Virus record (IMG/VR): IMGVR_UViG_3300042691_025331
Coordinates: 1 to 34,343 of that record
Reading direction: 5' to 3' (one strand)
Origin: a virus
Length of the DNA: 34,343 nucleotides
Positions 3,607 to 27,176 of this stretch are shown one piece after another. Every line of letters starts with the position of its first letter. Position 1 is the first letter of the stretch. The notes under the pieces are model-generated. The model saw nothing but the letters and a program-made list of their open reading frames with translations, had not been told where the DNA came from and ran no database searches. The position numbers were made by a program, and so were the translations under genes.

Positions 3607-3610
3607 TTAT

Positions 3611-4801: not shown

Positions 4802-5108
4802 TGGTGACGATTCTCAGTAGGCGTTTACGCATCATCTCGACGAGTTCAGGTGCGGCCGTACCGCACACCGAATAGAAAAGGGCCTCGTAAATCGGCTCCG
4901 TCCTCCCGTGTATCACGAAGTATCCGAGTATCGCCACGATGCCGCCCGCCGCGATGCGACGGACCCACCAGACCCAAGCGAGATTCTCGTCGGTCAGCAG
5001 GAGTCGGCAGAGTGCACCAGCAGCACCAAGGACCGCTACCAGCCATCCGCCTCGTTTCAGGTCGTCCGCCGCTCTCATCAGGTTGTCGTCCGGTGGGGGT
5101 GGGCTCAT
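4764..5108 (-). CDS. Putative holin, LydA-like (114 aa)
   Basis: After a short polar N-terminus (MSPPPPDDNLMRAADDLKR) come three hydrophobic segments at about 20-38, 46-67 and 74-92, and a basic tail. The pattern (an arginine after the first TM, a WVRRIAAGGIVAILGYF second TM, and CGTAAPELVEMMRKRL in the third region) resembles LydA-type phage holins. Holins collect in the inner membrane and open at a set time to release or activate the endolysin. The ATG overlaps the stop of the giant gene (ATGA), so its synthesis is probably tied to the end of translation of that long message. No endolysin gene follows, which is unusual for a lysis cluster. Confidence 0.65.
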   Translation of the reverse strand: MSPPPPDDNLMRAADDLKRGGWLVAVLGAAGALCRLLLTDENLAWVWWVRRIAAGGIVAILGYFVIHGRTEPIYEALFYSVCGTAAPELVEMMRKRLLRIVTNEVDTAIKRRSK

Positions 5109-8100
5109 CGTTCTTCGTCCTGCGTACGGCTTGTGGATAGCGGCTTGATGTCCTCATAGAATTTGTAGACCCTGATGGCTTCCTTGATTCTGGCCGTCGG
5201 GTTCTGGAGGTCGCCGACGGACATGAGCGGGATGCCGCTTCGGACCATCTTGAGCATCTCCTTGCGGAAGGCCTCGGTCTGGTATCTGGGCTTGATGATG
5301 AGCATCGGTCCGTTGAAGCCCACCATCCTGTTGACCGCGTGGGCGACTTGAAGGCTGTCGGACGCCGAGGTGATGCCCATCGCATGCAACATGACGGCGT
5401 TTGTGCCGTTGCCGTAATTGGGTGCCGACTGCCACCCTTCGGCGGCCTTGCGAATCTGGTTGAACGACTTGATTTTGCCCACCGTGGCAGGTTCGTCCAC
5501 TCCGCCCACTACGGTGTTCATGCCGAACGGGTCGGCCGCGGATGCTTCCGTGCTGGCTCTGGCCCTGTTCATCTTGAGCCGGGCCTCCTCTAGGGGAATG
5601 TCAGGATACTTCTCCTTGAATCTGTTGTAAGCGGCTTCGTTCATCTTTGTGGAGGCCATCGTTCCGGCACTTGAGCCCTCGAACAGATGTCCTTCCATGG
5701 CGTATCCGCCGACCCTAGCGAACTGCTTGAGGAATACGGAGACGATGGGAACGCTACCCAGATACTTCGACAACTGGGCCATACGTTCCCTGAGTTCTCC
5801 TTGGGACTCGATACCGCCGATGAGCAGTTTGCCAGTCTTTGGGTCGAGGATGTTGAACTTTCCGTCCTTCATCTCGACCACGGGTCTGGCGAACAGGTCG
5901 TGCGACTGCTTGGCGATGAAGTCCGCGGGAAGGCCCGCGTAGTAGACCAGATTGTTCCAGTGCGGTGCACCGTAGTTGACCGCGTAGCCGTGGGTCTTGT
6001 CCACCGGAACGTTGCTCATCAGGTACTGCGGATTGTCCACGTACTTGGCCACACGCTTGAAGATGTCCAAGCCCTGCTCCGTGCCGTGGTATTGCTGGCT
6101 GAGTTCAAGCAGAATCTCAGGTGCGGCAGGTCCGCGACGTCCGCCGATAATTTCGGTAAGCACCTGTTTAAGGGGGTACTGTCCGTTAGGCGTGTTTACC
6201 CTGACGCCTGCGACGCTCTGTCCGAACGACTCGGCAGTAAGGTCCGACGAAATCTGAGGAAGTTCGGGCAGGACTTCTCTGGCCATGGCCGCGATGTGAC
6301 CATCCACAAAGGAGATTAGTCCGTTATGCTCGATTTGACCATCGGTGCGAAGGCCGCTAGACATCTCGCCGGAGACAAGCCTTCCGAAGAAGTCCCCGTG
6401 TGCCTTCTTTTCGACGGCCTTGGACAGCACATAAGGAATCACCAAGTTCTGCTTGCCGATGGCGTAGACGTGACCTTTGCCCAGAGTGACCATGGCGGTC
6501 ATGTGCTCCAGCGAACTGTATCTGGTGCGGTGGTGTCTGGCGTCGGCGATGACGAGGCCGTTCTGGCCAGCCTGCAAGGCCCGCATGGCGTAGTACTTGA
6601 CGGCCAGTTCGCGGTAGGCGTTGTCCTCGCCGAGAGGGATGGTATCCGGGAAGTTGTAGTCCTTCGGCTCAGGCAGTTTCATCTTGGCCATCAGTTCCGA
6701 ACGCTTCTGCTTGAGTTCGTTGACCTTGATGTCTCCGCCAAACTGGTAGACCGAGGACATGGCGTAGAACGCGTTGATTTCAAGCATCCTGCCAAGCGGG
6801 GTCTTTGCCTCATGCGGGAAAGCCAGAAGGTAGGAACCCGACACGCCGGTGCCTGCCGGGTCCATGTCTCCGTCCACCCTGTTGAGGGTCGAGAAGTCGT
6901 ATCCGTCCTGAATGGCTTTCTGAATCAGTTCAGGGGTGATGGACTCGGGCTGGAACATGTAGATGTTCCTGAGGAAGATGCCCGGATTCATGAGCGGGTC
7001 CTCGCCGCGTCTGATTGACGTTTCGTAAGCCTCCCTGACATTGGCCAACTTGGAAGGGTCCGCGGCGATGTGCTTGCTCTGCCTATCAAGGTCGTACATG
7101 ACGGCCTCGACAGGGGTCATCGCGATGTAACGAGAATACTGCTCGGAACCGCCGGGGGAATTGAGTGCGTCGACGTAATAGACGAACTTCTTCTGCGACC
7201 AAGACGCGTAATCGTGTTCGCCCATTTCGTACTTGGCCCACCTGTTTTGCTTTTGGTCCCTAGTCAGGTGCTCTGGATTGATTTCCCCCTGCTTCAGCAT
7301 CTCCTCCATGGACATCGCCATCAGTTTGGCATACTCCTTGGAGGACGGGCTCAGGGTCGTGTTCTCGGACAGGCGTCTGTTGAACTCGTTCAGGAACGAG
7401 TAAGCCATGGCGTCGAAGTCGATACCATGCTTGGTTCCACGCTCCATGACGGTTGCGAGACGCTCTGCGGAAGCATGCAACGACTCGTCGCCCAATGCCA
7501 TGAACCCGAGCAAGGCGTAAATTTGCCCGCCTACGCCCTTTTGCGTCCGGTTGTAGGACTGGAAGTAGTTAACGTACTCGAACTTTCCGTCTAGGTTGGG
7601 AACCACGCCGGTCTTTTCCGGGAACAGCGTCCTCGACAGTTTGGCCGCATGCATGCTCCCGTCGTCGGCCGTGTATTGGTCGGACAGGAGATGGCCGGTG
7701 ATGTATTCGTGAACCGAGGCCTCGTCTACCTCGCTCAACTCGAACGGGCGAATCTCCTGAGGAAGGCCGAACCTGCTGGCTTCCTCCTTGGAAAGCATGA
7801 CCGCAGACTCCGGCCTGATGTCGTAGGACGGGTTCAGGTCCCTTCCGTCGTCGATGGCCAGCCTCAGGACCATGTGCTTCTCAGGAAGCGAGAGCCTGCT
7901 GAAAAACAGGGGGGCGATAATGGCGTGATGGATGACTTTGGTGTTGTTGGTCCTAGGCCAGTCGTAGTTCCACCTGACCGGCACCATTTTGGAGTCCGTC
8001 GAAACCTCGAACACGGACAGTTCCTTGTTGATGGCCTTCAATTCAGGGATGAGACCGAAGGCCTCGGCCTGCTTGAAGTCGCTTGCGGACATCTGTTCCG

Positions 8101-11100
8101 CATCCTTGGGAGGTCCGAAGGTCGCTCTCTGGTATGGGTCGGACTGCAACTCCTCGATGAGGGTGACGAACTGGCCAGCACCATGCTCACCGGCATAGGA
8201 GGTATGGTTGACGGAATCCACCAACTCAAGGGGGTCTGGGTTCGGAAGCGACTCGGCCAAGGCGATAACGCCGGAGTAACGCAGGTGCGTGTACTGCATG
8301 GTGCCATCTCCGGTGTTCCAGTGGCCGTTCTGTCTGGACTTCTGAGCGGCATGTTTGCGGAACTCATAAGTTCTATGTGCCGAAGCCAGCATGGATTGAA
8401 GCCTTTGGGCCTCGGCGGCGTCAGTGGTAGCCTGAATTCGGCCCTTGATTGCGTTCGTGTACTTTTCGTACTCCTTGGCATCGACTTCCACTCTGCCGAA
8501 CAGGACGTCTACCTGATAAGGGTTGCTGGCGGCCGACGAGTATTCAGCCCAGTCTCTCGTCCCGGTCTCGTTTGTGAATACCTTGTTGCCGTTGATTTCA
8601 AGGGACTCCGTGGAAGCAGGTGCCTCCAGCGGACGCAGATAGCCGGGCCTGACGTTCTGCTGGTCGTAATGGCCACGCGGGTCTGGCAACAGCAGTTCGA
8701 CTCCAGCCGCTAGATTCAACTGCTCCTGAGGCATGGACCGAATCATGTCGTTGAAGCCTTCGCGGTAGATTTCCATGAGCGGCCCCGAAATCTTGAGCAT
8801 CTCTCTGTCCAATGAAAACGCCTCGTACACATGAGAGTAGGACGGGAACATCTCGTCTACCTTGTCGGCCGAATAGAACTCAGACAGAGCCTTCTTGAAA
8901 GCATCAAGGTGTCTTGCTTTCAGTGCCTCAACAAACGCGGCCAGTTGAGGCTTGTCGCCGTCCGCCGCTGATTCTTCAAGGGCTTTCAGTTTGGCGAACA
9001 TGTCGTGGTGCATCAGTTTGTACTGATGAGCCATGGCTCTAGCCGCACCAAGCGGGTTCTTGGTGTCCGGGATTCTGCCATCAGAGGAGCCTGAAGTGCC
9101 TCTCTCGGCGATGGACCGACGGCCAGTGATTGGGTACATGGCGTAGATGTACTCGGCGACTTCCTGCCTGCTGAGCGTGACCGTGCGATGGTCGTACAGG
9201 AACTGGGCGAGGCCGACGACACGCATCTCCTGCTTGCCCACGCCGTTGAAGGTGAGCATCTCGTACCACTGGAGACCGGTGGCCTTGTCCTTGAATTGCC
9301 TGTTCTTGTCTCCGCCTCTGACGATGGCGTTCATCGCCGTGGAGGCGAACTGGAGCGGGCTTCCCATGGTGCTGAACCCGATTCTCTCCTTAAGGTCTCG
9401 CTCCATGGCCAGCAGGTCGCCAGTCGAAAGCCTGACGGTTCCGGGCTGGGGTGCCTTGCCGGTGATGGCTTCGGACTCCAAGACCATCTTTTGGAAGGCT
9501 TTTGCCTCGGCCTCAGTGGCGAAGGTCTTGGCGAAGTTGCCGACCGCGTAGGTGCTGTCCTCAGTCAGGATGGGTGCGGGGCCTTCGATGGCCGCTTCGT
9601 TCAGCCTGAGAGGCTGGTAGATTTCAGCACCGACGTTCGGGTCGCTGGGCAGTTTCTGGATGGTGGCATCCGTCTCAAGGCTGAGCATCTTGACGTGCTC
9701 GGCGAGGATGCCGCTCTTGGCCACCGAATTGGCGAACTGACGGGCATCGGCCTCCGAGCGATGACTTCTGACCACACGCTCCTTGATAGGCATGCCAGCG
9801 GAATCGTAGCCGACAACCTTGTCGTAGCCTACAAGCCAACTCTTGTTGCCGGAGCCTCTGCTCGGGGCGACCACCGACAGGTTCATGGAATCGGCGTTGT
9901 CCCAAGCGAACTGCTCAAGTTCCGGGCGTCCGGGGAACATGGCACGGATAATAGCAAGCCTGTCGCCGCTCTTGCGGAGATTCTGTTCGGCAAGAGGCAT
10001 GTGATAGCCCTTGTCGGAACTGGTCATCATCTGGAAGGCCTGCTCGACGCCGCTGATGAACAGCGGGTCTCTTTCGTGAATCTTGGCCAGCAACGAGGCG
10101 TACCTGTTGCCGACGAGGTTGCCGCCGCCGCTTTGGTCGGACATCTTTTCAATGGCGGAGAAGTCGCGGACAGACATGTCCCTGCCTGCATCTTCAATGG
10201 CGGTCTGCTTCAACTTGGCCGTCATCATGTCCACGTACGTGCCGCTACGGTTCCAAGTGTAGTTCTGGGTCAGGAACTTCGACTTGGCGTTGAAAACACC
10301 GGCCTCCGAGAACATGTCCGCGTTTGAACGCTCTGAGGCTATCATGTAGTAGGCCATGATAGCCCTCTGGAACTGCTCGATGGTGGCGTCCTTGGGCAAC
10401 ACGAACGACACATAGCCGTAATCGTTCTTGAGTCCGCTGATGATGCCGCCGTTGCCGCTCATGAAGTTCGTGATTCCTTCGATGTTCCCGCTTGGTCCGA
10501 GGACCGGGGAGATTTCGGTATTGGCGTTCCTGTAAGCCGTTTCCATCTCTCTGGCCACAAGACCGGCACCCCTGAGGCCTGCGGCGGTTTGGTCGGTCAG
10601 AAGTCTTTCGGCATACACTGGGCCGACTACGGCCTTGCGAAGGTCCGCGGCGATGGAACGCCTGTAATGGCGGATGAGGGCTTGGTCAATCGCACCATTC
10701 GCGTCGAAGAAAGGAAGATGACCCAGCATGTGATTGGCCGCATAGCCGATGATACGCTGGGAATCCCTAAGGGCCCTGCCGGTGCCGTAGGAGAAGCCCA
10801 TGCCAGCCATGGTCGCCTGATAGCGAGGGTCCTGAGGCGTGATGATGCCGCCGAAGTCGTGGTTGTAGCCGAGGACTCTGGACAGGTTGATGCCGATGTC
10901 GTGCTTCCTGTTGACGGCTGAGTATGCCCGGTCTCCGCCAGCGATGACGTTGGTATCAGGGCTGAAGTTCACCAAGATTCTTCCGTCCTCCAGCCGGTTC
11001 CAAGAGAAGCCCGTGCTGGGCCTGTTCTCGACGCTTCGTCTGACGCCGAAATTGAAGCCGGTAGTGAAGGCCGTGCTCATGCCGAAGCCGGACCTGCCAG

Positions 11101-14100
11101 CCACATTGGCTACGTCGGCGGAGGTCCTGAGCGAGTAAAGAAGTGCGTCCGGTCTGCTGGTGGCCGTGTATCTGGCTGGCTGGATGGAGACTTTCTCGAC
11201 GCCGAGTTTCTTAGCCATGTCGGCGATTTGGTTGACCATCAGCGTCCTTCTGGTGCCGTTGGACAGGTACGAAGGATTCGGCAACGCCTTGATTTTCCCG
11301 CCGACTTCCTGAACGGCCTTGGTGACAGGCATGCTTTCTGAAAAGACCGCCCTGCCTCCGGTCGTGGTCCTTTCATCCCTGCCAAGTAGCATCAGGGAAC
11401 TGGCGTTGAACTCCTCAAACTGGCCAATCTTGATTTCCTGAGGAATCGCGAAACCCATCGGCCTGCTCATCGCCGAGATGACAGGCCCGCCTACTCCTAT
11501 CGCCTTGTTGTAGGAATTTTCTCCGTAGGCGGTGGTCCAACTTGGGTCGTCGATGCCAATCTTGTTTTCGCCGAAAGTTTGAAGCCCTGAGGCCGACGTC
11601 TCGACATAGGAGATGTTATCTACCGAGTGTCCGTTCTTGACGTTGGTTCGGTACAAGTTGTTGCCACCGGCGGTGCCATAGAACACAGGAACCCTCTCCT
11701 CGGACTTGCTGTGCCTGCTGAAGAACAGGCTGGAGTCGTTGGCCCTAGGGATGTACGTCTCCATCTGGTTGGCCGCCCGAGGCTGTGAGAAGAACCCAAT
11801 CCAGAAGTCCTTGGTCTTGATTGCCTCGGAGATTACCCTGACGTAATCCTTGGTCATGGCGGGGCTGAAGCCAGCGATGTCGTCGGCGAGGGCCGCATGA
11901 ATCTTGGCGTTGTAGTGGGCGGAGGTGGCCAAGGCGAAGTCGACCGAGTGCTTCAACTGCTTGTCACCGAGTTTGGCGATTGGCTCGCTGATGTCCTTGG
12001 AGAGGACCTCATGCAGGTTCATGTACGCCATCAGGTCGGCGACCGTTCTGGCGTTCTGGTTGGTGCTAAGTTCACCGACCATCGTGTCGATGGCATGGGT
12101 GTCCAGTTTGGCCATGAAGGCGTCAAGCATCGCGTCCGTCTCCGGAACGAGCACGCCGGTCTTGAATTCGGCAAGACCTTCATCGGAGGTCAGGAACTTG
12201 TACTCCACGCCCCTGAACGCCGCAGGGACGTTGAGACTGAGTTCGTTGTCCTTCTCCCAGAAGTCCATGAACCCATGCTTAAGCATGACGGACAGCGGGA
12301 AGGCGGCGGCAAGGCCGACGGTCCTGTTGTTCACCCTGATGGTTCCGCCTTGCTCATTGGCGGAAATCTTCTGCCCGAGCGACGTGCTAGGCTTCGAGAA
12401 CAGGTTGTTCTGGTTGCCGAAAATCTCTTGGATTCTGCCGGAATTGGCGGACACGTAGTTCTTCATGTTGCCGCTGGCCAGACCGGCTTCCATGAGGTTT
12501 CCTACGACAAGGACGGCGTTTCCGCCAACGACGTGAGCCAGCCCGGAATCCCGCACCACGGTGTAGGATGACTGACCTCCGAACTTGTCGTCGCCCGAGA
12601 GTTCGAGTGCGACCTCGCCCACGATGGAAAGCCTGTCGGTCGCCCTGCTCTGGGGCTTTTCCGTGTCGCCGGTGTCGGCGATTGAACCGAACAATGCGAT
12701 TGCCAAAGACAGGTCCTGATAGGTCTTGCCCTTGACGTATCTGCGTCTGATTTCCAGCGGAACAAGCCGCATGGTCATCCCGGAACTGGCGAAATAGGAA
12801 TCGGCGGTTAGAGAAGGCGACACCTGCTCCACGTCCACGACAAGCGAGTCCCCGATTACCCGGCCTTGTGCGTTGGAGATTGCGATTGTACCCTGTCCAG
12901 CCACCGGGAAGCCCTCTCTGCGGCCAACGACGTCAACCTGCATGCCCCTTGAACCGATGGAAAGATTCCTGTCGGCGTTGTAGTACTCCGTGAACAGTTC
13001 GGAATTGGCGATTCTGTCCATGATGAGTTGGTCTCTGCCGAGAGAGAGCGTCTCGTTGATTAGGCTTTCAAACAATGTCTCGGCCTGTTCTGCCGTCAGC
13101 GTGGCATGCTCATCGAGAACGTAGTCCCTGTCTCCTTTCATTATGGAGCGAAGGGATTCCTTTTGGTCCGCAATTTCGCGAAGTCTAGCCTCTCGCTTTA
13201 TGACGGCCTGCTCGACGATTTGCTCCTTGATGGAGTAGTCTACGTTACGCGGCGAAAGGGTGGACAGGACTGTTTTGGCTATTGACGGCTCGTATCCCTT
13301 GAGCCCGCTGAACATCGTCGGACGCGAACCCGCTTCAATCGTTGTAATCGGAGAGACGCCAACGTGGATGGTGGAGGTGGCATGGCCAACGGCGTCAGCG
13401 AGCGAAACCGCAGACGGATTGAAAAGCGACAACTGGAGCAAGGGTGCGTTTATCTCGCTCCTTGAAGGCAAGTGACCGGTGAACGGCTCCTCGGCACCTG
13501 TGCCGCCGATTGCAAGAAGTGCACCTTCCTTGCCTCCCGCTCTCTTGGGAAGGTTTGATAGGCCATAGCCCAAATGGCCATGAGGGGTCATGAAATTGTA
13601 CGCCGTACCTTCACCAATGAGAGAGATGTTTGCCGGATGCTTTGGCATGATTTCATGCGAAACCATGACCATGTTGGCACGCTCGATGTCATCCATGAGC
13701 ATGAAGGCCATCTTCAACTTGTCCAGCCTGCCGATGTTTGCACTTTCGGAAATGGACTTGATTGCCTCGTTGACGATTGGCTCGATTAGGGATGCCTTGG
13801 CATGGAATTCCCTATTGAGTCTTTCGACTGTCTTGTTGCGAAGTTCCGCGTCCCCTATGAAAGCGTTTCTATCACGCTCCTTGAGTCTGTTTCCGATGTT
13901 GGCGGAAATTTGGGCCCACTTTTCAACGGCTTCTTGACCTAGGTCCAGTACCCATTTCGGAGTATCGCCGGTTTCAAAAACGATTCTTTGACCGTTCACT
14001 CCAAAGTATCCGACGGCAAAACTGCTTGAGTGCGTTGCGTATTCCGCGGACCCAGTTGCACTCGACATGAAAGGTCTGCCTTCTTCGCTAAGGACCAAAG

Positions 14101-17100
14101 ACCTGCGTTTTTCACCGCTTGCCGTGGCGACGGCGTTGGCAAGAACCTCGCCAGCCCTGACAATGGGAGACCCCTTCGAGGATTCCATCTGCGTCGGCAT
14201 GACGAACTGGCTGTGGTTGACGGCCATCAGGTTGATAAGGTCGTTCTTGGTCAGGGTGACGTCCGAGAAGGCCTCGGCAATCTTGGCGACCTTGGCCACG
14301 GCCATGGCATCCTCGGTGGCGATGCCAGACTTACGCATCAGTTCCATGACGTCCGACCCCCTGAAGTAGGCAGGGAAGTGGGGTGCCATAACGGCGTCGA
14401 TTGCTGAATTGCCGACCGTGAAAACGCTGGACGACTCAACCACCGCACCGCCAAGGATGGCCAAGTCCTCGATGGTGTAGGTATGGCCTTCGCTCGCCAT
14501 GACGTTTCCGGGAATCGTAATCTCGTTTCCGCCGCTCGTCGAAGGGACGTTTTCCTCGCCAAACACCTGCTTGAGGTTTTTTGCGAACTGCTCGCCGGTG
14601 ACGCCCTTGAGGATGTGGGTACCCGTGGTCAGGGTCATCCTGCCGTTTTTGTCGACCTGCCAGCCATTGGTCCTGACGGCGACACGATTCAGGATGTCCA
14701 AGGTCTCGTTGGCCATGTCGGCGATGCCGTGCATGAGGACGGCCTTGCCCATGATGGTCAGCACTCTGGAGTCGGTGACATCCGTCTCACCGAGACCGCC
14801 GACGGACTGCAAGATGACCGGGGCGATACCGTGCTGGCTGATGTTCTTAACCATGTCACGGTCCGAGCCCAACTTGGACATGTCCATGGCGTTGCGGATG
14901 ATTTTGAGAACCGGGTCCTTGACGTTATCGTCGGTGGCGACCCTAGGCTCGGCGGTCAGTTCCGCCTCGGTCTTGCCGCGTCTCTGCTCGGTCTCGCGGG
15001 CCATCTTCTCGACAGGGGCCATGACGTACGACATGTCCTTGTAGTTGCTGATGGATTCCATGAGCAGTGCGGCCGCTTCGGTTGGCATGGCCGCATCAAG
15101 GATGTCGAACGTGCTGACCAGACCTAGGGCGTTGAACGCCGTACGGAACTGCATGTTGTCGTGCATCCTGATGGAGTAGTTCGGCATCGTCAGGATGGAA
15201 TCCCTACGGAAATCCGCCAGACGTTGGTAAACGTCGATGACAGCCGTCAGGTCTCCGGCGAACTTGGCGTCGAAGTGCAGTTCCATGGCCTTTTTGGCCA
15301 TGGCGTCGGACACGTTCCCAAGTTCATGCTCGGAAAGGATGAATTCGGCGAAGTTTCTGGCGGCGGACACCATCAACGGCTTCGCGTTGGCCTTGAGCGA
15401 CCTGATGACGGGCGACTTGGACGCCTCGACCATACGCGTCAGCAGTTCGGCCTCGCTGTTGGCGGCCTTGTCGGTCTCCCTAAGTTCGATAAACCTTCCG
15501 CCCTTCATCATGATGTCAGGCTCTTTAAGCGACTTGATGAGGTCGGACTTGAGGGCTAGGCTCGTCTTGATGCCAAGCAGGTTGCCGAAGGCATGAGCCG
15601 CGACCTTCTGCGGGATGGCGTTCAGTTGGATGTCGTTGCCAATCCAGCCATGCTTCAACTGGATGGCATGCTGAACCTCATGCAGGATGATGGACGACAG
15701 CGGGTTGTCCTTAATCCACTGGCTACGGAGGGCTTCCCTGTTGTTGAAGATGGTGCCCATCTGCTCGGCGGGCAAGTTGAGTTCGGTCGCGGCGAACGAG
15801 CGAAGGCCCAGTTCGATGACGCTGGTGCCACCGGCGTTTACGTGCCTGCCGCCGTGGAAATCCTTGAAGTGAACCCTAATGTCCCTGAACTCAGGATAGT
15901 ATTTGTACAGTTCTGGGTGGTCAAAGATGTCGCCCAACTTGGCCTCACCTAGGATGATGTTGTCGCTGATGTATCTTTGTTCTGGTGGCAGAGTCAGCCT
16001 GCGTCTGACGGCCGCGGCGTAATCAGAGAACGCACCTTCTGGGTCAGGGGTATTGAGGAACGGCAGGATGTGCGGACGATTGGCCGCTTTTGCCAAGTTG
16101 AGGGATGCACCGGCGTCCGAGAACTCGAACACGTTGATGGTCTTTCCGTTGAAGGTAATCTCCGAGACAAGACCCTTAGCCTTCAGTTCGTCCCTTTTGG
16201 CGAAATCGTCGACAACGGATAGGTCGCCGACGGACAGGCGATACTGGTCGGAGAGAACGTCGAAGTCTTTGTACGACTTGGACATTTTTTCGAGCATGAG
16301 CCTGTACTGGGAAATGGAACTCTCGTCCGCCCTTCCCGTGGCCCTGAGCATCCTAGTGACCCTGCTTTCGACAAGAGCGGCATGCCCGACGGTTCCATCT
16401 TCGGTTGGGATGGCGTAATGCCTAGACAATGCGTAGGCAACCTTGGCTCTGCCCCATGCGTTATTGTACTGGATGTCAGCCGGGGACTGCGACTTGAAGG
16501 TCATTCCTTCATGTGCCATCACGCCAGCCCTGACGTCCTCGACGAACTCCATAACCATGTCGTTTTTCGACTCGGCGGCAAGCCGGTCAATCAGGTTGAA
16601 GAACGCAACCTTGTCGTTGGTGGTTACGTTAGGATTTTGAATGATTGAATCGTACGCGGATTCGATTGCCTTGGCGTTTTCAGGCATCTGGTGCATGGCC
16701 ATGATGGCCGTGAGTTCAGCGGGCTTGTTGTCACGCATGAACCCCTCGGAAGGAAGTGCACCAAGACCCTCAAGCATTGAAACCATGTCAATCGAACCGA
16801 CCCTAACGCCTCCCTTGAAAATTTCCTTAGACAGGTTTCTGACCGAATCCCTGTCAGCCATTGAAACGTCGGTCGTAATCCCGACAAAGCCACCAAGATA
16901 ATTTTTTTGGTATTCGCCCTTTGCGTTACGCGTGACCGCCATTACGTAATGAGCACCACCGGAAAGAACGCCAGCAACGCTGGAAGGGTATCCTTTCTCT
17001 CTTTGGACAATGCTCGACTTGAGGACGCCTGAAGAATCAAACCCGAGATTCGCAACAACCTCCTTTGGCCTGACAAAATACGTCTTGGCAACTATGGGTT

Positions 17101-20100
17101 TGATTACTGGCTCTTTTTGGCGGCTGGAAAATTCCCTTACTGCTTCTACGTTGTTTGTTTGAACAAGAACATGACTCAGGGTGTTTGCGAAGTCCGCCAG
17201 CATTGGCTCTACGGCGACTGCGGATTCGAGCCTAGACTCAACAATCATCGAAAGTTTCTCCAGCCTGCCGGACCTGTCTTTCGGAATGACGATGGCGGCG
17301 GTGACGCCTCCGCTTTCGTTAGGGAAATAAACAAACTCGGAATCTTTTTCAAATGCCTCGTTAAATGAGAAAATCGCTTCCATCAACCTGATGGCCTCCC
17401 TGTTGAATTGCTCGGACTTCAGAATGTCTTTTCTGTCCAATTTGCTAACGATTCCCTTTAAGGCATTAACATAATCAGTCCTTCCGACAGAACGTTCCAA
17501 CGCCTTGGCAAAAGAGTCTTTCTCCTTGAGGTCAATTCCTTGAAGTAAGCCGGAAGATGACGCCTCATAAACATCCGCGTCTCCTTCGGTTGCAGTAAAG
17601 TGCTTTCTTAGCGGCTCGTTAGTTTCAAACAGACGTTTTCTGGCTTCAATCTCAGACGATTTTGTCAGACCCTCTGCAAACCCTTTGCCGCCCTCCTTCA
17701 AGGCTTTGATGAGCCCAGCCAAGGCAAGGTAGTTCAATCTTACGCCCGCTCCTGTGTCTGCGTTGTTAGGCTCGGACAGGAAAGACCCGAAGATTGCCGA
17801 GGCCGCACTGAACTGACTGTGAAGGTCCTCGAACCTAGTGTTGATTAGGTTTTGAATCTTGTTCTCAAGTCCCCTTGGTCCAATGTCCCGGATGAGGCCA
17901 TCCAAGTCCAGAAAGATGGTAGGAAGCCCGGTATCGGTATCAATCTTCAGGGCGGCGTACTCGCCATGCTGGTCGATTGATTGAAACCTGCCAAACGCAC
18001 CTTTGCCACCGGCGGTAGATGGGACTATGACCACATCAGAGGCACTTCTGATTGGCGAATTTACCTTCCTGAGGAACTCATTAACCTTGGCACCACCGTC
18101 GGAAAGCAGGTCTGCGTATCTTGGGAATCTGTCTGCGATGTAAGGCCTGTCCTCTTTGCTGTATTCTTTGGTCCAGTTTCCGTCCTTGTCCTTCCAAGCG
18201 GAATCCCTGACTTTGAGCAACGTGGAAGCCAGATTGCTTACGAGTTCCTGATTAACTTCGACGTAATTGCCGTCCTTATCATAGCCGCCTACCGAAAGGC
18301 GGACACCGTTTTCGTAAGACGCCTTCTTTCTTTCTGAGAACTTTCCGAACGTACGTTCTTCGATTTTTTCAGGCCTGCTCACCTTGGCGTCCTCCATAGC
18401 CACCGGGGCGGGCATGATGTCTGCCTCGTCCAACTTGGTCAGGTCCTTGTTGGCCGCTTTGATGGCCTTCTTGGCGGAGTCGTAAATGCCGACCATCACC
18501 CCGAACGGGTTAAACAATTTGAACTTCCTGTTGGCTTCGGAGATTTCGTAGCCCTGAGCGTTACGCAGTCTGTTCTGGTTCTGGCCGTGGATAGCGAAGC
18601 CGCCGACGGAGTAATTGCGTCTGAGGCCCTCGTAGGACCTGCCGTGGTGGTACGGCATGGGCTTGGCCGGGATTCGCTCGGCACCGACAATCAACTCCAG
18701 TTTCATGGAGTGAATCGGGTAGTCAGGGTTCTCCGGGTTGCTGGAGTAGCCCTCACGCGGGACGTTGATGTAGGACTCGTCGGCACGCTTTCTGCCACCG
18801 AAGGTCTCGTACATGGCGTCACGCACGGCTTCGGCCTTGGAACCGAACTCAGCCCTGAACAGTTCCGCGGACGGCACTCTGGTGGCCGGGTCGGACATCA
18901 TGTTCGTCAGGTACTTGTCGAACATCGAACTGTAATGCTCGGCGGAGGTGAACAGCCTGCTAATGTCGGCTCTCTGCCACAGGCGAATCTTGCGTCTGTG
19001 GATGGCCATGTAATCGACGACCGTGGCCACGGCACCGCCCTTCGGGGCCCGCAGAGGCTTGCCGTTGGAGTCGGTGGTCCTGAGGGTCATCTTCAACTCG
19101 AACGGAACGTACACGCGGTAAGTGACCGGGACGTCGTTGCCGAGCAGACGCTGGAAGAAGCCGTCCTTCTTGATTCTGTGGCTGTCGCCCCAGTAGAAGG
19201 AAGCCATGATGTTGCCTTCGGAGAAGCCGCTGGCCTCCCAACGCTTCATCGTGTCACGCATGCCCTTGGCGGTCTCGACCGAGTGGGCGTCGAGGACACC
19301 GGCCGCGAGAAGGGCGTCATAAGCCTCGTCCTTCATCTCATACATGTCGATGGACTTGTTGCCGTGCTCATCAAACATGACGTCAGGTCGAACGTCCTCA
19401 GGAAGTGAGTCGATGACGGCGAACGCCTTCTGGGCGTTCTTGGTGAACAACTCGTTCTGCTCCTTGGTGCCAAGGATGGTGGCCTTGTTGCCGCTGATGT
19501 TGAACAGGTACTCCTTGCCGTATCTTCTGGCCTCGATGGCCTGACGTTCGGGGGAGAGGCCTCCGATGGATTGCGTCTCGCCGGTTCTAGCCTCGTTGAT
19601 GAGGGTCTTGACGAGTCCCTCCATGGCTTCGTGGCGGTAGTACTTACCGCCGTCGTAAACTTCCGCTTGGATGGTAGGAGTCTGGTCTTTTCCGAAATAC
19701 TCACCAACTCTTGCACGGATGCCCGCAAGTTCGAGGTGAGTGACTTGCTTTGCGAAAACCTCGTTTCTCAGTTGCTCCATGACGAGCCTGATTGGCTTCG
19801 TCTTTCCCTCGAACGGGATGTTGTACAGATTGGTGTGCAGGAACAAGGACTCGGAGTACTTGGCTATTGTCTCCTCGAAGATGTACCTGCCGATAATGTC
19901 GCTTTTAACGACGCCAATGGTTGCGTCCGTGTCGGTAAGACCATTCCATTCCCTGTTCAGCCAATACCTAGGTCCGGACGTCTTGGCGTCGTTTCGGACG
20001 GTATCAAGGAGCGATTCGACGCTACGGTAAACCTCGTCGTACCTTTGCTTGCCAATCTCGTTGGCGATGTCGATAGGCGAGCGTCCTTCCCTTTGAGACC

Positions 20101-22135
20101 TAGCAACAACTTCAGCACCATAAGGGCTACCGCTATCTACCAACTGCTCGGTGATGATGCGTCTAACGGCACCGTCGATAAGCATCCTGTCGTCTCCGAA
20201 GATACCGGCGTTCTTCTCATGCCCGATGAGTTGCCTGACGTATTCCCCGGTTTTACCCTTCAGCCCAAGCGAATGGATTGCGACGTGCGAAAGGATTTCG
20301 TGGCCTACGTCTGCCGGGCGGTATTGAGCCTCGTTGAGAAAGAGGAAAGCCCTGTCTCCGGCCGCCATGAACATCCCCTTGGTCGTTGATTTTGGGTCAA
20401 ACAACGGCTTTGCGACGTAGTTCTTGCTGATAAGCAAGTTGTTAAATTCAGAGACGCTACCCTTGAAGAAAACTGTTCTAGCCTTGTCCGCATCAGACAG
20501 GGCAAGCCATGCGGTCTGAAGTGCGAATCTGGTATTCGCCGAAATCTTGGTGGACTTGAGTGCGTCGACGTCGGCCAGAATCTTTCTGGTCATGCTGGCA
20601 AACTCGCCGTTCTTGCTTTCGGTCGTCGGCAGGAAGTTCCTGTCGAAGTTCTCGATGACGTTGGCGTAGTGGAATCCGCCGTTGATGTTGGCCCAAGTGT
20701 GGCGGAACGCACCGCTGTAACCGCCCCAGACCATGCCGGTCGCGGCACCGCCCACGGCACCACGCATCTGGTCGTTCATGTAACCAAGACCACCGAAGAT
20801 AAGGGCGTCCTTGTAGGCGTTCTTCAGTCCAGCGGTGGACATCTGGAGGAACGGGTCGACAATAACGTTGGCCGCTTTGGCCGCGTAACGGGCTGAAGGC
20901 GACAGATTCTTGGACGAAGCCAGACGCTCAAGGACCGTAAGGCCGTTGATTTCGCTGACAGGAATCGAGCCACTGGCTCGCTGAAGGATGGTATCACCAA
21001 GTTCCTGCAACAACTCAGACGAGGTTCGGACACCAAGCGAGCCGATGAATCCTACGGTCTGCTTTGCACCGACCGCCTCGGTGGCGTTCATAGCCGTCAT
21101 GACTGCGGCGTTCTCGACCTCTCTGGCGACATAGCCGCTACGTTGTGCGATAGACTCGACGGTGCCGCCGAACACGGACTCTGCCGCCGTGGCGATAGGT
21201 TGGAGGGCCTTGCCAGCACCATAGGCCACGTTGCCCACTACGGTCTCAGAGAATCTGCTGGCCATGTTCTCGAAGTCCTTGGAGACCTTGGCCATGGTCA
21301 TGCCAATCTTGCTGATTCTGCTGGCGTTGGCCTGCAATCTCATGGCCTTCCCGGCACCAGCCGCGATAGCACCCGCCGTCGAAGCACCACCCGTGAACGG
21401 AGCCGCAATAAGAGACGGCAGTTCAAGGCCCATGAAGGCCATGGCGTGGGCAATCTTCGGGTTGACCATGCCCCTGAGGTTCTGCTTGGCCTCCTCGCTG
21501 AGGTTCAGGGACGAGAACTGCTCAAGCAGGGTCTCGTCGCCTTGGGACATCAGGTGGGAGTGATACAGGAACTTTCTGGCCTCGTTCCACTGCTGGGCTT
21601 CCTCCTTCCAGTCCTTGCTCAACTTGCCGTGCATGACGGCACCGATAAGCGACCTGAGGTTGAAGAAGATAGAGTCAGGGTTTTCGGACTGGGCGGCGAT
21701 GCCCCACATGTCTCTTAGGCCTCTGGCGGCACCCTCGACCGTACTGTAAGCCGTCTTGGCCATCCCGGTAGGGGTAAGGCCGTTCTCGATGACGCCTTCG
21801 GCAAGGCCGACCGGAATCTTGGCGATTTCACCGGCCGCACCCATGAACATGTCAAGGTAGTCGGTATGACGCTTCTGAAGTGCCGTACGTACGGCCTTCC
21901 AGTTCTCCTCCGCGTCAGGAGCGTCAAGGTCGATGCCAAGACCGGGATTCTCCTCGTAGAACTTGGCGACCTCCTCTGGGTCGTCTACGTTCGCTACTGC
22001 GAAAGAGCCGTCTGCCTGTTGTTCAAGCGACGGCCCGAGGTCGAGGCGTTTGCCAGCCTCCAGATACTGCTGGGCGAAGAACGCCGCTTCGTTTCTGTCT
22101 GGTTGCTGGTTGGTGAGGTCTAGTTCGTCGGCCAT
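5105..22135 (-). CDS. Giant polyvalent protein (5676 aa), putative virion ejection protein
   Basis: A single uninterrupted frame of 17 kb, far longer than known internal ejection proteins such as T7 gp16 (about 1.3 thousand residues) or the N4 virion RNA polymerase (about 3.5 thousand). Hydrophobic, glycine/alanine-rich stretches lie near residues 230-265 and 450-475. HEILSH at 612-617 looks like a metallopeptidase zinc site. LHEVQHAIQ around 2152 belongs to a domain common in phage polyvalent proteins. A third hallmark module is spread over about 4280-5210. VFYGTAGG near 3483 faintly recalls ADP-ribosyltransferases. Polyvalent proteins are packed in phage particles or moved with conjugative elements and act on the recipient cell. 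Its position after six ejection-like genes and before the holin supports a virion protein injected with the DNA. The ATG overlaps the previous stop (TAATG). Catalytic roles are inferred from motifs only. Confidence 0.85.
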   Translation of the reverse strand: MADELDLTNQQPDRNEAAFFAQQYLEAGKRLDLGPSLEQQADGSFAVANVDDPEEVAKFYEENPGLGIDLDAPDAEENWKAVRTALQKRHTDYLDMFMGAAGEIAKIPVGLAEGVIENGLTPTGMAKTAYSTVEGAARGLRDMWGIAAQSENPDSIFFNLRSLIGAVMHGKLSKDWKEEAQQWNEARKFLYHSHLMSQGDETLLEQFSSLNLSEEAKQNLRGMVNPKIAHAMAFMGLELPSLIAAPFTGGASTAGAIAAGAGKAMRLQANASRISKIGMTMAKVSKDFENMASRFSETVVGNVAYGAGKALQPIATAAESVFGGTVESIAQRSGYVAREVENAAVMTAMNATEAVGAKQTVGFIGSLGVRTSSELLQELGDTILQRASGSIPVSEINGLTVLERLASSKNLSPSARYAAKAANVIVDPFLQMSTAGLKNAYKDALIFGGLGYMNDQMRGAVGGAATGMVWGGYSGAFRHTWANINGGFHYANVIENFDRNFLPTTESKNGEFASMTRKILADVDALKSTKISANTRFALQTAWLALSDADKARTVFFKGSVSEFNNLLISKNYVAKPLFDPKSTTKGMFMAAGDRAFLFLNEAQYRPADVGHEILSHVAIHSLGLKGKTGEYVRQLIGHEKNAGIFGDDRMLIDGAVRRIITEQLVDSGSPYGAEVVARSQREGRSPIDIANEIGKQRYDEVYRSVESLLDTVRNDAKTSGPRYWLNREWNGLTDTDATIGVVKSDIIGRYIFEETIAKYSESLFLHTNLYNIPFEGKTKPIRLVMEQLRNEVFAKQVTHLELAGIRARVGEYFGKDQTPTIQAEVYDGGKYYRHEAMEGLVKTLINEARTGETQSIGGLSPERQAIEARRYGKEYLFNISGNKATILGTKEQNELFTKNAQKAFAVIDSLPEDVRPDVMFDEHGNKSIDMYEMKDEAYDALLAAGVLDAHSVETAKGMRDTMKRWEASGFSEGNIMASFYWGDSHRIKKDGFFQRLLGNDVPVTYRVYVPFELKMTLRTTDSNGKPLRAPKGGAVATVVDYMAIHRRKIRLWQRADISRLFTSAEHYSSMFDKYLTNMMSDPATRVPSAELFRAEFGSKAEAVRDAMYETFGGRKRADESYINVPREGYSSNPENPDYPIHSMKLELIVGAERIPAKPMPYHHGRSYEGLRRNYSVGGFAIHGQNQNRLRNAQGYEISEANRKFKLFNPFGVMVGIYDSAKKAIKAANKDLTKLDEADIMPAPVAMEDAKVSRPEKIEERTFGKFSERKKASYENGVRLSVGGYDKDGNYVEVNQELVSNLASTLLKVRDSAWKDKDGNWTKEYSKEDRPYIADRFPRYADLLSDGGAKVNEFLRKVNSPIRSASDVVIVPSTAGGKGAFGRFQSIDQHGEYAALKIDTDTGLPTIFLDLDGLIRDIGPRGLENKIQNLINTRFEDLHSQFSAASAIFGSFLSEPNNADTGAGVRLNYLALAGLIKALKEGGKGFAEGLTKSSEIEARKRLFETNEPLRKHFTATEGDADVYEASSSGLLQGIDLKEKDSFAKALERSVGRTDYVNALKGIVSKLDRKDILKSEQFNREAIRLMEAIFSFNEAFEKDSEFVYFPNESGGVTAAIVIPKDRSGRLEKLSMIVESRLESAVAVEPMLADFANTLSHVLVQTNNVEAVREFSSRQKEPVIKPIVAKTYFVRPKEVVANLGFDSSGVLKSSIVQREKGYPSSVAGVLSGGAHYVMAVTRNAKGEYQKNYLGGFVGITTDVSMADRDSVRNLSKEIFKGGVRVGSIDMVSMLEGLGALPSEGFMRDNKPAELTAIMAMHQMPENAKAIESAYDSIIQNPNVTTNDKVAFFNLIDRLAAESKNDMVMEFVEDVRAGVMAHEGMTFKSQSPADIQYNNAWGRAKVAYALSRHYAIPTEDGTVGHAALVESRVTRMLRATGRADESSISQYRLMLEKMSKSYKDFDVLSDQYRLSVGDLSVVDDFAKRDELKAKGLVSEITFNGKTINVFEFSDAGASLNLAKAANRPHILPFLNTPDPEGAFSDYAAAVRRRLTLPPEQRYISDNIILGEAKLGDIFDHPELYKYYPEFRDIRVHFKDFHGGRHVNAGGTSVIELGLRSFAATELNLPAEQMGTIFNNREALRSQWIKDNPLSSIILHEVQHAIQLKHGWIGNDIQLNAIPQKVAAHAFGNLLGIKTSLALKSDLIKSLKEPDIMMKGGRFIELRETDKAANSEAELLTRMVEASKSPVIRSLKANAKPLMVSAARNFAEFILSEHELGNVSDAMAKKAMELHFDAKFAGDLTAVIDVYQRLADFRRDSILTMPNYSIRMHDNMQFRTAFNALGLVSTFDILDAAMPTEAAALLMESISNYKDMSYVMAPVEKMARETEQRRGKTEAELTAEPRVATDDNVKDPVLKIIRNAMDMSKLGSDRDMVKNISQHGIAPVILQSVGGLGETDVTDSRVLTIMGKAVLMHGIADMANETLDILNRVAVRTNGWQVDKNGRMTLTTGTHILKGVTGEQFAKNLKQVFGEENVPSTSGGNEITIPGNVMASEGHTYTIEDLAILGGAVVESSSVFTVGNSAIDAVMAPHFPAYFRGSDVMELMRKSGIATEDAMAVAKVAKIAEAFSDVTLTKNDLINLMAVNHSQFVMPTQMESSKGSPIVRAGEVLANAVATASGEKRRSLVLSEEGRPFMSSATGSAEYATHSSSFAVGYFGVNGQRIVFETGDTPKWVLDLGQEAVEKWAQISANIGNRLKERDRNAFIGDAELRNKTVERLNREFHAKASLIEPIVNEAIKSISESANIGRLDKLKMAFMLMDDIERANMVMVSHEIMPKHPANISLIGEGTAYNFMTPHGHLGYGLSNLPKRAGGKEGALLAIGGTGAEEPFTGHLPSRSEINAPLLQLSLFNPSAVSLADAVGHATSTIHVGVSPITTIEAGSRPTMFSGLKGYEPSIAKTVLSTLSPRNVDYSIKEQIVEQAVIKREARLREIADQKESLRSIMKGDRDYVLDEHATLTAEQAETLFESLINETLSLGRDQLIMDRIANSELFTEYYNADRNLSIGSRGMQVDVVGRREGFPVAGQGTIAISNAQGRVIGDSLVVDVEQVSPSLTADSYFASSGMTMRLVPLEIRRRYVKGKTYQDLSLAIALFGSIADTGDTEKPQSRATDRLSIVGEVALELSGDDKFGGQSSYTVVRDSGLAHVVGGNAVLVVGNLMEAGLASGNMKNYVSANSGRIQEIFGNQNNLFSKPSTSLGQKISANEQGGTIRVNNRTVGLAAAFPLSVMLKHGFMDFWEKDNELSLNVPAAFRGVEYKFLTSDEGLAEFKTGVLVPETDAMLDAFMAKLDTHAIDTMVGELSTNQNARTVADLMAYMNLHEVLSKDISEPIAKLGDKQLKHSVDFALATSAHYNAKIHAALADDIAGFSPAMTKDYVRVISEAIKTKDFWIGFFSQPRAANQMETYIPRANDSSLFFSRHSKSEERVPVFYGTAGGNNLYRTNVKNGHSVDNISYVETSASGLQTFGENKIGIDDPSWTTAYGENSYNKAIGVGGPVISAMSRPMGFAIPQEIKIGQFEEFNASSLMLLGRDERTTTGGRAVFSESMPVTKAVQEVGGKIKALPNPSYLSNGTRRTLMVNQIADMAKKLGVEKVSIQPARYTATSRPDALLYSLRTSADVANVAGRSGFGMSTAFTTGFNFGVRRSVENRPSTGFSWNRLEDGRILVNFSPDTNVIAGGDRAYSAVNRKHDIGINLSRVLGYNHDFGGIITPQDPRYQATMAGMGFSYGTGRALRDSQRIIGYAANHMLGHLPFFDANGAIDQALIRHYRRSIAADLRKAVVGPVYAERLLTDQTAAGLRGAGLVAREMETAYRNANTEISPVLGPSGNIEGITNFMSGNGGIISGLKNDYGYVSFVLPKDATIEQFQRAIMAYYMIASERSNADMFSEAGVFNAKSKFLTQNYTWNRSGTYVDMMTAKLKQTAIEDAGRDMSVRDFSAIEKMSDQSGGGNLVGNRYASLLAKIHERDPLFISGVEQAFQMMTSSDKGYHMPLAEQNLRKSGDRLAIIRAMFPGRPELEQFAWDNADSMNLSVVAPSRGSGNKSWLVGYDKVVGYDSAGMPIKERVVRSHRSEADARQFANSVAKSGILAEHVKMLSLETDATIQKLPSDPNVGAEIYQPLRLNEAAIEGPAPILTEDSTYAVGNFAKTFATEAEAKAFQKMVLESEAITGKAPQPGTVRLSTGDLLAMERDLKERIGFSTMGSPLQFASTAMNAIVRGGDKNRQFKDKATGLQWYEMLTFNGVGKQEMRVVGLAQFLYDHRTVTLSRQEVAEYIYAMYPITGRRSIAERGTSGSSDGRIPDTKNPLGAARAMAHQYKLMHHDMFAKLKALEESAADGDKPQLAAFVEALKARHLDAFKKALSEFYSADKVDEMFPSYSHVYEAFSLDREMLKISGPLMEIYREGFNDMIRSMPQEQLNLAAGVELLLPDPRGHYDQQNVRPGYLRPLEAPASTESLEINGNKVFTNETGTRDWAEYSSAASNPYQVDVLFGRVEVDAKEYEKYTNAIKGRIQATTDAAEAQRLQSMLASAHRTYEFRKHAAQKSRQNGHWNTGDGTMQYTHLRYSGVIALAESLPNPDPLELVDSVNHTSYAGEHGAGQFVTLIEELQSDPYQRATFGPPKDAEQMSASDFKQAEAFGLIPELKAINKELSVFEVSTDSKMVPVRWNYDWPRTNNTKVIHHAIIAPLFFSRLSLPEKHMVLRLAIDDGRDLNPSYDIRPESAVMLSKEEASRFGLPQEIRPFELSEVDEASVHEYITGHLLSDQYTADDGSMHAAKLSRTLFPEKTGVVPNLDGKFEYVNYFQSYNRTQKGVGGQIYALLGFMALGDESLHASAERLATVMERGTKHGIDFDAMAYSFLNEFNRRLSENTTLSPSSKEYAKLMAMSMEEMLKQGEINPEHLTRDQKQNRWAKYEMGEHDYASWSQKKFVYYVDALNSPGGSEQYSRYIAMTPVEAVMYDLDRQSKHIAADPSKLANVREAYETSIRRGEDPLMNPGIFLRNIYMFQPESITPELIQKAIQDGYDFSTLNRVDGDMDPAGTGVSGSYLLAFPHEAKTPLGRMLEINAFYAMSSVYQFGGDIKVNELKQKRSELMAKMKLPEPKDYNFPDTIPLGEDNAYRELAVKYYAMRALQAGQNGLVIADARHHRTRYSSLEHMTAMVTLGKGHVYAIGKQNLVIPYVLSKAVEKKAHGDFFGRLVSGEMSSGLRTDGQIEHNGLISFVDGHIAAMAREVLPELPQISSDLTAESFGQSVAGVRVNTPNGQYPLKQVLTEIIGGRRGPAAPEILLELSQQYHGTEQGLDIFKRVAKYVDNPQYLMSNVPVDKTHGYAVNYGAPHWNNLVYYAGLPADFIAKQSHDLFARPVVEMKDGKFNILDPKTGKLLIGGIESQGELRERMAQLSKYLGSVPIVSVFLKQFARVGGYAMEGHLFEGSSAGTMASTKMNEAAYNRFKEKYPDIPLEEARLKMNRARASTEASAADPFGMNTVVGGVDEPATVGKIKSFNQIRKAAEGWQSAPNYGNGTNAVMLHAMGITSASDSLQVAHAVNRMVGFNGPMLIIKPRYQTEAFRKEMLKMVRSGIPLMSVGDLQNPTARIKEAIRVYKFYEDIKPLSTSRTQDEER
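6500..9298 (-). other. Expanded polyvalent-protein module within the giant gene
   Basis: Three blocks, in the order known from smaller polyvalent proteins: residues about 4283-4335 (TGLQWYEML, FNGVGKQEM, GLAQFL, LSRQEVAEYI), about 4620-4680 (GHW, HLRYSG, then IEELQSDPYQR with E4661 to D4666) and about 5173-5207 (ELAVKYYAMRALQAGQNGLVIADARHHRTRY). In typical members these correspond to a W-x-x-x-L, GVK-x-x-E, GL-x-x-x-L block, an EEIQSDWHQ block and a K-x-x-L-x-YA-x-x-x-G-x-D block within about 300-400 residues. Here they extend over about 930. The biochemical activity of this module is not known to me. Confidence 0.6.
15611..15958 (-). other. LHEVQHAIQ domain of polyvalent proteins within the giant gene
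   Basis: Residues about 2060-2175 read LGDIFDHPELYKYYPEFRDI, later GGTSVIELGLRSF, then SSIILHEVQHAIQLKHGW with H2152, E2153 and H2156. The order 'L-x-D-I-x-DHPEL-x-x-x-YPE' followed by 'LHE-x-QHAIQ-x-x-x-G' is a well-known combination in large polyvalent phage proteins. The HExxH triad suggests a zinc metallopeptidase-like fold. I do not assign a domain number. Confidence 0.7.
20156..20338 (-). other. HEILSH metallopeptidase-like site within the giant gene
   Basis: Residues about 600-660 contain PADVGHEILSHVAIHSLG. H612, E613 and H617 give the HExxH zinc motif, and H621 could be a further ligand. Similar 'HE-x-x-x-H-V-A' sites occur in metallopeptidase domains of polyvalent proteins. A role in cutting host proteins, or in cutting this protein itself during maturation or ejection, is inference. 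Confidence 0.5.
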
Positions 22136-23112
22136 TAGAGTTGCTTGGATTTACGAAGGAGTTTCTCGTTGTCGATGGCTCGCTTTTGGCCCTGCGTCTC
22201 AGGCAGGAGGTCGAGACCATTGGCTTGGGCGGTGCTCCTAAGTTTCTCCAGCGTCATAGACCTGACCTGTTTAATCAACTGCATTTCGTTGCCCTTGAAC
22301 CTAGTCCACGTGTGGGAAGCCCGCTGGGGGGTCATGGATTCGACAACGGAAAGGTCGCGGTCGGACACGCCGCCACCAAGGCCCTTGGCCTCGGACATGA
22401 TGCGGGAGAAGTCCAAGAGGATTCTGGCCTCAAGGCCCCGTGCCTTGCTGGAAGCCTCGCTGTACCCGACATTGGTCAGAACAGCGTTCTCCCCGTACAG
22501 TTTTTCGAGGTCTTTCAGGTTCTTCAGAAGGCCTTGGCTGGTTCCGATTAGGGTTCTGAAGCGGTCGGCGTTCTCATCCCCGCCCTTGAACGGGACGTTG
22601 GTGACGCCGTTCTGGCGGGCCAGAAGGTGGACGGGCACCTTGAATGGCTTGCCGTCAGGGCCAAGGCCCTCGCGTTCCCCCTTGGGGACGATACGCATCT
22701 TGACGGTGCCGCTGGGGGCTCTGGGGTCAGTCTTGTCCTGTTCGCCAAGGTCGAAGTCGTACCCGTCATACATCTGGAAGATGTTACGGCCTTCTTTGGA
22801 CGAAATTAGGGACTGGGCGGCACCGAGGTCCCCAATCTTGTTGGCGTAGAACTCGGCGTCGGCAAGGAAGGGGGATGCTTGCTTTTCGGAGCCACCGGAC
22901 GCTCGGCCAGCCATCTGACCCATCTGGGCTCGTTGGGAGGCTGGGGCGAACAAAGGGGCCACCCCAGCAAGCGGGTTCATGCCAGCCTGCTTGTAGGCCA
23001 TGGACTGGGCCGGGTAGTAGCCCTGAGGCTGTTGGGCCTGAGGCTGGACGCCAGCGTTCCCTAGGACGTCCTGCGGGCTTACGCTGAACTCCGGGTCATA
23101 GTCGGCTTCCAT
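22135..23112 (-). CDS. Putative internal virion/ejection protein (325 aa)
   Basis: I do not recognise a family. The N-terminal ~80 residues are low-complexity and rich in Gln, Pro, Ala and Gly (NAGVQPQAQQPQGYYPAQ), probably disordered. A middle part has alternating strands and loops (GTVKMRIVPKGERE, KPFKVPVHLLARQNG), and the C-terminal ~150 residues look helical (LLKNLKDLEKLYGENAVLT, then EARILLDFSRIMSEAKGLGG). The tail is basic (LLRKSKQL). The helical C-terminal part could pack against the giant protein encoded immediately after it; the genes overlap by one base (TAATG), as does the one before. GC content is high here (a hand count at 22321-22380 gives 40 of 60), unlike the next two genes upstream. 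Confidence 0.65.
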   Translation of the reverse strand: MEADYDPEFSVSPQDVLGNAGVQPQAQQPQGYYPAQSMAYKQAGMNPLAGVAPLFAPASQRAQMGQMAGRASGGSEKQASPFLADAEFYANKIGDLGAAQSLISSKEGRNIFQMYDGYDFDLGEQDKTDPRAPSGTVKMRIVPKGEREGLGPDGKPFKVPVHLLARQNGVTNVPFKGGDENADRFRTLIGTSQGLLKNLKDLEKLYGENAVLTNVGYSEASSKARGLEARILLDFSRIMSEAKGLGGGVSDRDLSVVESMTPQRASHTWTRFKGNEMQLIKQVRSMTLEKLRSTAQANGLDLLPETQGQKRAIDNEKLLRKSKQL

Positions 23113-26555: not shown

Positions 26556-27176
26556 TTAGGAGTTAAGGTCTGCGTCGTCCTCATAGCCAGATGGTGCTGG
26601 CTTCGGGAGGGCTTTTTGTTGGGCGGCGGGCTTGGGTTTCGTGGCCTGCTGGAAGCCTGCGGCTCCGGCGGCACCTTGGCTCATCATGTCTCCGATGTTT
26701 CGGTCGCCGATGAAGTTCATGTAGCCCTTGTTGTAGGCCGTGGAGCCACGCTTGCGGGACTTAATCATCTCAAGCGTCTTGACCGCTTGCTTGTACTCAG
26801 GGCTGTCAGGCTCGTAGAGACCAATAACGTTGGTCGCCCAGTCGGTCATGGCGGCTTCCTGACCAGCCATAGCCTCGTCCTCCATCATCAACATCTGAGC
26901 CTGTTTCTCGGCCGCGGCCTGACGCTGGAACTCGTAGTTGTTCCGGGCGATGCCCATCTGGTCGGACAGGGACTGCCTGCCCATAATCATCTTGTTACGC
27001 AGGTCTAGGTCGTACTTCTGCTGTACGGCATGCTTGCCAATCATGCCCTGAAGCCCAAGCGAGCCGAACGTAAGTGCGGCCTGATTGATGTTCTTGAGTT
27101 GGGGAATCTCGGCACCCATCAGGTTCGTGATGCTCTCACGACCCCCGCGGTAGTCCCCTAGTTGCATTGTGTTCAT
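26556..27176 (-). CDS. Putative internal virion protein, helical (206 aa)
   Basis: Residues about 25-110 are almost wholly helical, with long polar and Met/Gln/Ala-rich runs (AVQQKYDLDLRNKMIMGRQS, EFQRQAAAEKQAQMLMMEDE). The N-terminal helix region also holds a glycine-leucine segment (LTFGSLGLQGMIG). The C-terminal 35 residues are a Pro/Lys/Ala linker (KPKPAAQQKALPKPAP) ending in an acidic tip (GYEDDADLNS). Such helical small proteins between the tail nozzle and large ejection proteins are common in podoviruses, where they are often core proteins, but I recognise no family. The ATG overlaps the previous stop (ATGA). Confidence 0.6.
   Translation of the reverse strand: MNTMQLGDYRGGRESITNLMGAEIPQLKNINQAALTFGSLGLQGMIGKHAVQQKYDLDLRNKMIMGRQSLSDQMGIARNNYEFQRQAAAEKQAQMLMMEDEAMAGQEAAMTDWATNVIGLYEPDSPEYKQAVKTLEMIKSRKRGSTAYNKGYMNFIGDRNIGDMMSQGAAGAAGFQQATKPKPAAQQKALPKPAPSGYEDDADLNS

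Follow-up and report, generated by a model that had tools for sequence, protein, structure and literature searches.

Which product does a single gene encode that fills half of a viral genome fragment, and at what stage of infection would such a product act? The question is raised by IMG/VR virus record IMGVR_UViG_3300042691_025331, whose 34,343 nucleotides were analysed in full and are referred to here as the window. The gene in question, hereafter the giant gene, occupies positions 5105..22135 on the minus strand, starts with ATG and runs through 5,676 codons with no internal stop, so that 49.6% of the window is one frame, as an earlier sequence-only reading of this DNA had pointed out. The encoded protein has a calculated mass of 624.6 kDa, in agreement with the load of some 600 kDa proposed in that reading, and contains no cysteine. 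We consider it probable that the giant is a polyvalent protein packaged in the virion and ejected into the host, where it would form the largest part of the DNA ejectosome and deliver metallopeptidase and effector modules.

A frame of this length in DNA of metagenome origin could in principle be an assembly artefact or a chance open frame, and the sequence-only reading had asked whether the gene is broken or artefactual in related genomes. When this was tested, the frame was intact in all traceable relatives except one (L195), in which it is split, a point in favour of an artefact. Two close relatives from IMG/VR carry the gene interrupted only where their contigs end: G001 holds the C-terminal 2,594 codons at 70% identity, while G002 holds the N-terminal 4,339 codons, with 55% identity over the first 3,100 residues. 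With the major head protein as the query, 67 loci were obtained, and the giant gene was present without an internal stop in 27 of the 47 records then searched for it. From these, 24 near-full-length homologues of 5,266-6,436 codons were extracted, and further contigs from the scan with the conserved N-terminal region bring the total to about 48 by our count. The frame is more than chance because all 24 near-full-length homologues keep it, even those with about 19% identity, and because the ratio of nonsynonymous to synonymous substitution (dN/dS) was 0.07-0.48 in 250-codon windows with unsaturated synonymous change. A frame of 5.3-6.4 thousand codons thus recurs in independent metagenomes under purifying selection; the giant is a genuine gene, and an artefact or a chance frame is rejected with near certainty.

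The head protein is encoded within the window, while the terminase and portal genes, encoded in relatives, lie outside it, as G001 shows. Terminal repeats of 38-127 bp were present in eight records of 47.6-50.0 kb, which look complete, and in seven of these, where the giant gene is uncut by the record ends, it accounts for 35.4-39.2% of the genome. The window is a piece of a genome of about 48 kb. Neither a DNA search nor tblastn across 50,697 phage records recovered a relative; tblastn in INPHARED with pieces from the window and three pieces of divergent members gave no match, nor was any relative recovered from bacterial and archaeal genomes in a pattern scan that used only two short patterns. 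The phages of this group are small and uncultured and are not represented in the isolate collection searched. The nearest terminase and portal matches, distantly related, belonged to phage C75C1 (L171); its proteins of 2,769 and 1,343 amino acids (aa) at the corresponding genome position are unrelated by profile to the giant.

The giant evolves fast. Many core genes are 90-98% identical between the window and G001, and the giant is 70% identical; in the wider group, the head protein is 65-93% identical to that of G001 and the giant 19-31% identical to that of the window. Against this background, the alignment of the 24 homologues revealed several separate conserved blocks near residues 400-480, 800-1230, 2000-2680, 4000-4360, 4600-4670 and 5100-5220, while the weakly conserved stretches include 1300-1900 and 4900-5100. 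Residues 423-478 (20702..20869, minus strand, as are all the features of the giant given below) form a conserved Gly-rich hydrophobic stretch (GGLGYMND..GAVGGAATGMVWGGYSGAFRH) with 11 columns in which identity among the homologues is 95% or more and a Gly/Ala content of 22 out of 60 residues, which makes it a candidate membrane-active segment. Two Gly/Ala-rich hydrophobic segments had been noted in the first 480 residues, and both are present but weak: the highest 21-residue hydropathy in that part is 1.29 at residue 228, followed by 1.21 at residue 96, and when a membrane-spanning segment was sought in the giant, hydropathy reached at most 1.34.

The polyvalent motifs listed in the sequence-only reading were all located in the giant where it had placed them. 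Among phage polyvalent proteins, zincin-like metallopeptidase domains are frequent without being universal. The first zincin-type motif, HEILSH (residues 612-617; 20285..20302), reads HExxxH in closely related homologues and HExxH in those further away, and occupies the same position in every homologue spanning that part of the protein. The second lies within LHEVQHAIQ, which starts at residue 2151; its core HEVQH (residues 2152-2156; 15668..15682) is HE[VAIM]QH in all 24 homologues, so that HE.QH is invariant. Both HExxH and HExxxH forms of polyvalent metallopeptidases were described by Iyer et al. 2017 (PMC5512222). The second motif belongs to another strongly conserved region, residues 1975-2680 (14096..16213), with 83% identity to G002 and 17-36% to the wider group. 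Further along, residues 4043-4360 (9056..10009) form a conserved block with the pattern W..........GVGKQE.R..G, in which GVGKQE starts at residue 4298 (9227-9244); EELQSD (residues 4661-4666; 8138..8155) is preceded by H4605, T4616, H4617 and R4619; and KYYAMRA, starting at residue 5180, falls within the conserved Y...DA......RG block of residues 5174-5219 (6479..6616). The EE.QSD motif and its adjacent blocks recall what we take to be a domain frequent in large phage proteins, which the PHROGs scan did not confirm.

Structure prediction for residues 395-1235 (18431..20953), which include the best-conserved block of the whole giant (801-1230), gave a model from 22 sequences with a mean predicted local distance difference test (pLDDT) score of 70.9. 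In the model, HEILSH sits on a helix following three strands, a predicted placement that matches expectation for a zincin core. A Foldseek comparison with predicted viral structures returned nine matches below E 0.001 (best 5.5e-17), five of which are annotated as 'Large polyvalent protein associated domain' or 'ART-PolyVal-like'. No PDB structure matched below E 0.001, including any solved zincin; the highest-probability PDB match listed was the human metallopeptidase MATCAP, with E above 1. A weaker model of residues 4250-5230 (pLDDT 63.7) had no significant fold match. At the sequence level, Pfam and PHROGs scans gave nothing credible, either for the window protein, cut into ten overlapping pieces, or for divergent members, and searches of PDB sequences with three profiles found no match. 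The two HExxH regions showed no significant homology to one another or to N4 C1, though one alignment paired HEVQH with HELVH of N4. Homology to known polyvalent-protein domains is supported by predicted fold and absent from the Pfam sequence scan. The polyvalent identity assigned in the sequence-only reading gains support from the fold matches of the N-terminal conserved region and from the invariant zincin-type motifs, and its expectation of new domains from the Pfam and PHROGs scans, in which nothing credible was matched.

Phage polyvalent proteins (Iyer et al. 2017, PMC5512222) share with the giant a very large late-gene product, HExxH/HExxxH motifs and, by predicted structure, annotated large polyvalent domains; they usually sit among late genes and are often over 2,000 aa in length, compared with 5,676 aa here. 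The giant differs from them in its 5.3-6.4 thousand residues, in taking up over a third of the genome and in the lack of a credible Pfam domain; it is also one conserved gene across the phage group, whereas other polyvalent proteins have a shuffled architecture. The metallopeptidase motifs and the polyvalent fold also speak against the proposal that the giant is a tail tape measure or an external structural protein of the tail fibre or adhesin type. In its favour are the very large late gene and the fast evolution, which would fit receptor binding, but a collagen-like fibre or whisker protein is encoded by a gene of its own and no tape-measure match was obtained, so we give this proposal very little probability.

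The composition of the giant and of its neighbours points to a role inside the virion. Together with the six genes directly upstream, the giant encodes 7,574 residues without one cysteine, compared with 106.6 expected from the block's own position-specific base use (Poisson probability 5e-47). Tryptophan, whose codon has the same first two bases as those for cysteine, is at a normal level in the giant (36 observed, 40.9 expected), and the cysteine content of the other window genes is 1.09%. Across the family, only 81 cysteines were counted among 137,390 aa. The block begins at 27173..27862 (229 aa) and continues, all on the minus strand, with genes at 26556..27176 (206 aa), 25429..26547 (372 aa), 23969..25420 (483 aa), 23112..23963 (283 aa) and 22135..23112 (325 aa), the stop of the last overlapping the ATG of the giant; the next gene upstream of the block (27862-29286) encodes 474 aa with 8 cysteines. 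Six ejection-like genes had been proposed in the sequence-only reading, and exactly these six are cysteine-free, like known ejected proteins. The same order, a gene that encodes about 460 aa, several of them cysteine, followed by four to six cysteine-free genes and then the giant, was observed in most genomes showing the region. Between close relatives, the segment 23969-26547 is replaced or rearranged: G002 has one gene of 759 aa in place of those of 483 and 372 aa, with only one shared segment.

Among reference ejected proteins, cysteine is absent from eight of nine, namely T7 gp15 and gp16, N4 gp50, gp51 and gp52, and P22 gp7, gp20 and gp16, while T7 gp14 has one. None of the non-ejected reference proteins longer than 600 aa in the same stretches is cysteine-free, although three shorter ones are. 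A tie between cysteine absence and injection was proposed earlier for N4-like virion RNA polymerases (vRNAPs) (PMC3915230), and the argument was applied to StenR_269 (PMC10747016), a large cysteine-free late podophage protein of unassigned function that resembles the giant in these features and differs in length (2,270 aa). Here the argument is combined with a composition control and extended to a whole gene block.

Gene position leads in the same direction. The giant and the six cysteine-free genes are encoded together, with the giant as the final gene of the late block, and they end the internal-protein block as podovirus ejection proteins do. In most genomes, the ATG of the giant lies no more than a few bases from the preceding stop, either overlapping or adjoining it, which suggests that its translation is coupled to that of the preceding gene. 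T7 gp16 and P22 gp16 are likewise cysteine-free and last in the internal-protein block, but they have only 609-1,318 aa, show no detectable homology and are not claimed to carry a metallopeptidase motif. The gene for the N4 vRNAP, gp50 (Schitoviridae), is the last after gp51 and gp52, a place matched by the giant, and its product shares both the lack of cysteine and an HExxH domain; unlike the giant, it has 3,500 aa and an RNA polymerase domain, with no detectable homology. The giant vRNAP/cargo proteins of crAss-like phages (PMC10136315) are also giant cargo of short-tailed phages, reaching about 6,000 aa, but they are RNA polymerases from larger genomes. These likenesses in size, position, cysteine absence and HExxH domain would fit a divergent vRNAP of the N4 or crAss-like type that starts early transcription. 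Nevertheless, the homologues have no conserved DxDxD, and the match to the N4 polymerase-domain profile did not rise above the reversed control; for these reasons we judge a vRNAP highly improbable. Pfam scans show no polymerase either, although N4-type polymerases are very divergent and could escape detection.

Two invariant peptidase motifs in one chain also raise the possibility of a polyprotein that its own metallopeptidase modules cut during assembly, so that the virion holds fragments instead of one 625-kDa chain. A precedent exists in P1 DdrB, which is processed prior to packaging (PMC5512222). In L195 (5478-19138), moreover, the giant consists of two overlapping frames that split after the second motif: the first has 2,371 codons, and the ATG of the second overlaps its TGA. 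The split site corresponds to residue 2387 of the giant (14975..14977, minus strand), and homology runs unbroken across the junction, beyond the second metallopeptidase motif. The split may be natural and separate modules, or it may reflect a sequencing error of one base; if it is real, the protein functions as two chains. On the other hand, no cleavage site is known in the giant, and the N4 vRNAP is packaged whole despite its HExxH domain. Processing before packaging is accordingly conceivable but, in our estimation, rather doubtful.

Several observations weigh against a packaged and ejected polyvalent protein. Its hydrophobic segments are weak, and most distant homologues have 1-10 cysteines and not zero. 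Only two regions were modelled, and the C-terminal one is without a significant match. In addition, profile searches found no homology to T7 gp15/gp16, N4 gp50/gp51 or P22 gp16 above reversed controls. We infer virion location and injection indirectly, from cysteine absence and gene position.

If the giant is indeed ejected, it would be made late and packed in the head of a short-tailed phage beside about six smaller ejection proteins, and would then pass through the tail as an unfolded chain and enter the cell, accompanying or preceding the DNA. The small ejection proteins may form a channel through the envelope, with the giant placed like the N4 vRNAP or T7 gp16 at the inner-membrane/cytoplasmic end, where it would refold. 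The two putative zincin-type metallopeptidase modules could release parts of the giant or cut host proteins, and the remaining, mostly undescribed modules may act on host targets. More speculatively, and with clearly less confidence, this previously undescribed group may have fused its inner-membrane ejection protein and an effector arsenal into one conserved, nearly cysteine-free chain of about 600 kDa. Once injected, the chain would cut itself by means of its two metallopeptidases, freeing several new enzyme families.

Other genes of the window complete the picture of the locus. Three small genes downstream of the giant (3772-5108) encode membrane proteins; one of these, of 238 aa, has the lipobox-like sequence LLLTACQS at its start, and three hydrophobic stretches. 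They are possibly a lysis cassette; of the holin that had been placed after the giant, the small membrane proteins are there and the holin identity is only suggested. Tandem transfer RNA (tRNA) genes for Arg (TCT), Pro (TGG) and Ala (TGC) lie at 3455-3682 and are conserved at the matching position of G001, whose two tRNA-Phe genes are found elsewhere. The gene at 30536-31651 (371 aa) matches whisker and tail fibre families; the middle part of the window product could not be aligned with that of G001, and the gene possibly represents a receptor-binding fibre.

Phage polyvalent proteins acting as ejected cargo are already known; the new elements here are the size relative to the genome, a dominance conserved across a phage group, and the extent of conserved sequence without an assignment. 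Length alone is no claim to a record, because crAss-like vRNAPs attain about 6,000 residues (PMC10136315); our literature search on longer described phage proteins of this kind found nothing direct. If injected, the giant would be among the largest such cargoes known and mostly unlike described proteins. At about 1.6 times the length of the N4 vRNAP, in a genome that is smaller by about a third, it sharpens an open question, namely by what means chains of this kind are packaged, pass through a tail and fold again. New injected enzymes are likely to be found among the thousands of conserved residues that lack an assignment, and the paired test of cysteine absence with normal tryptophan could reveal ejected proteins without known homology in other genomes.
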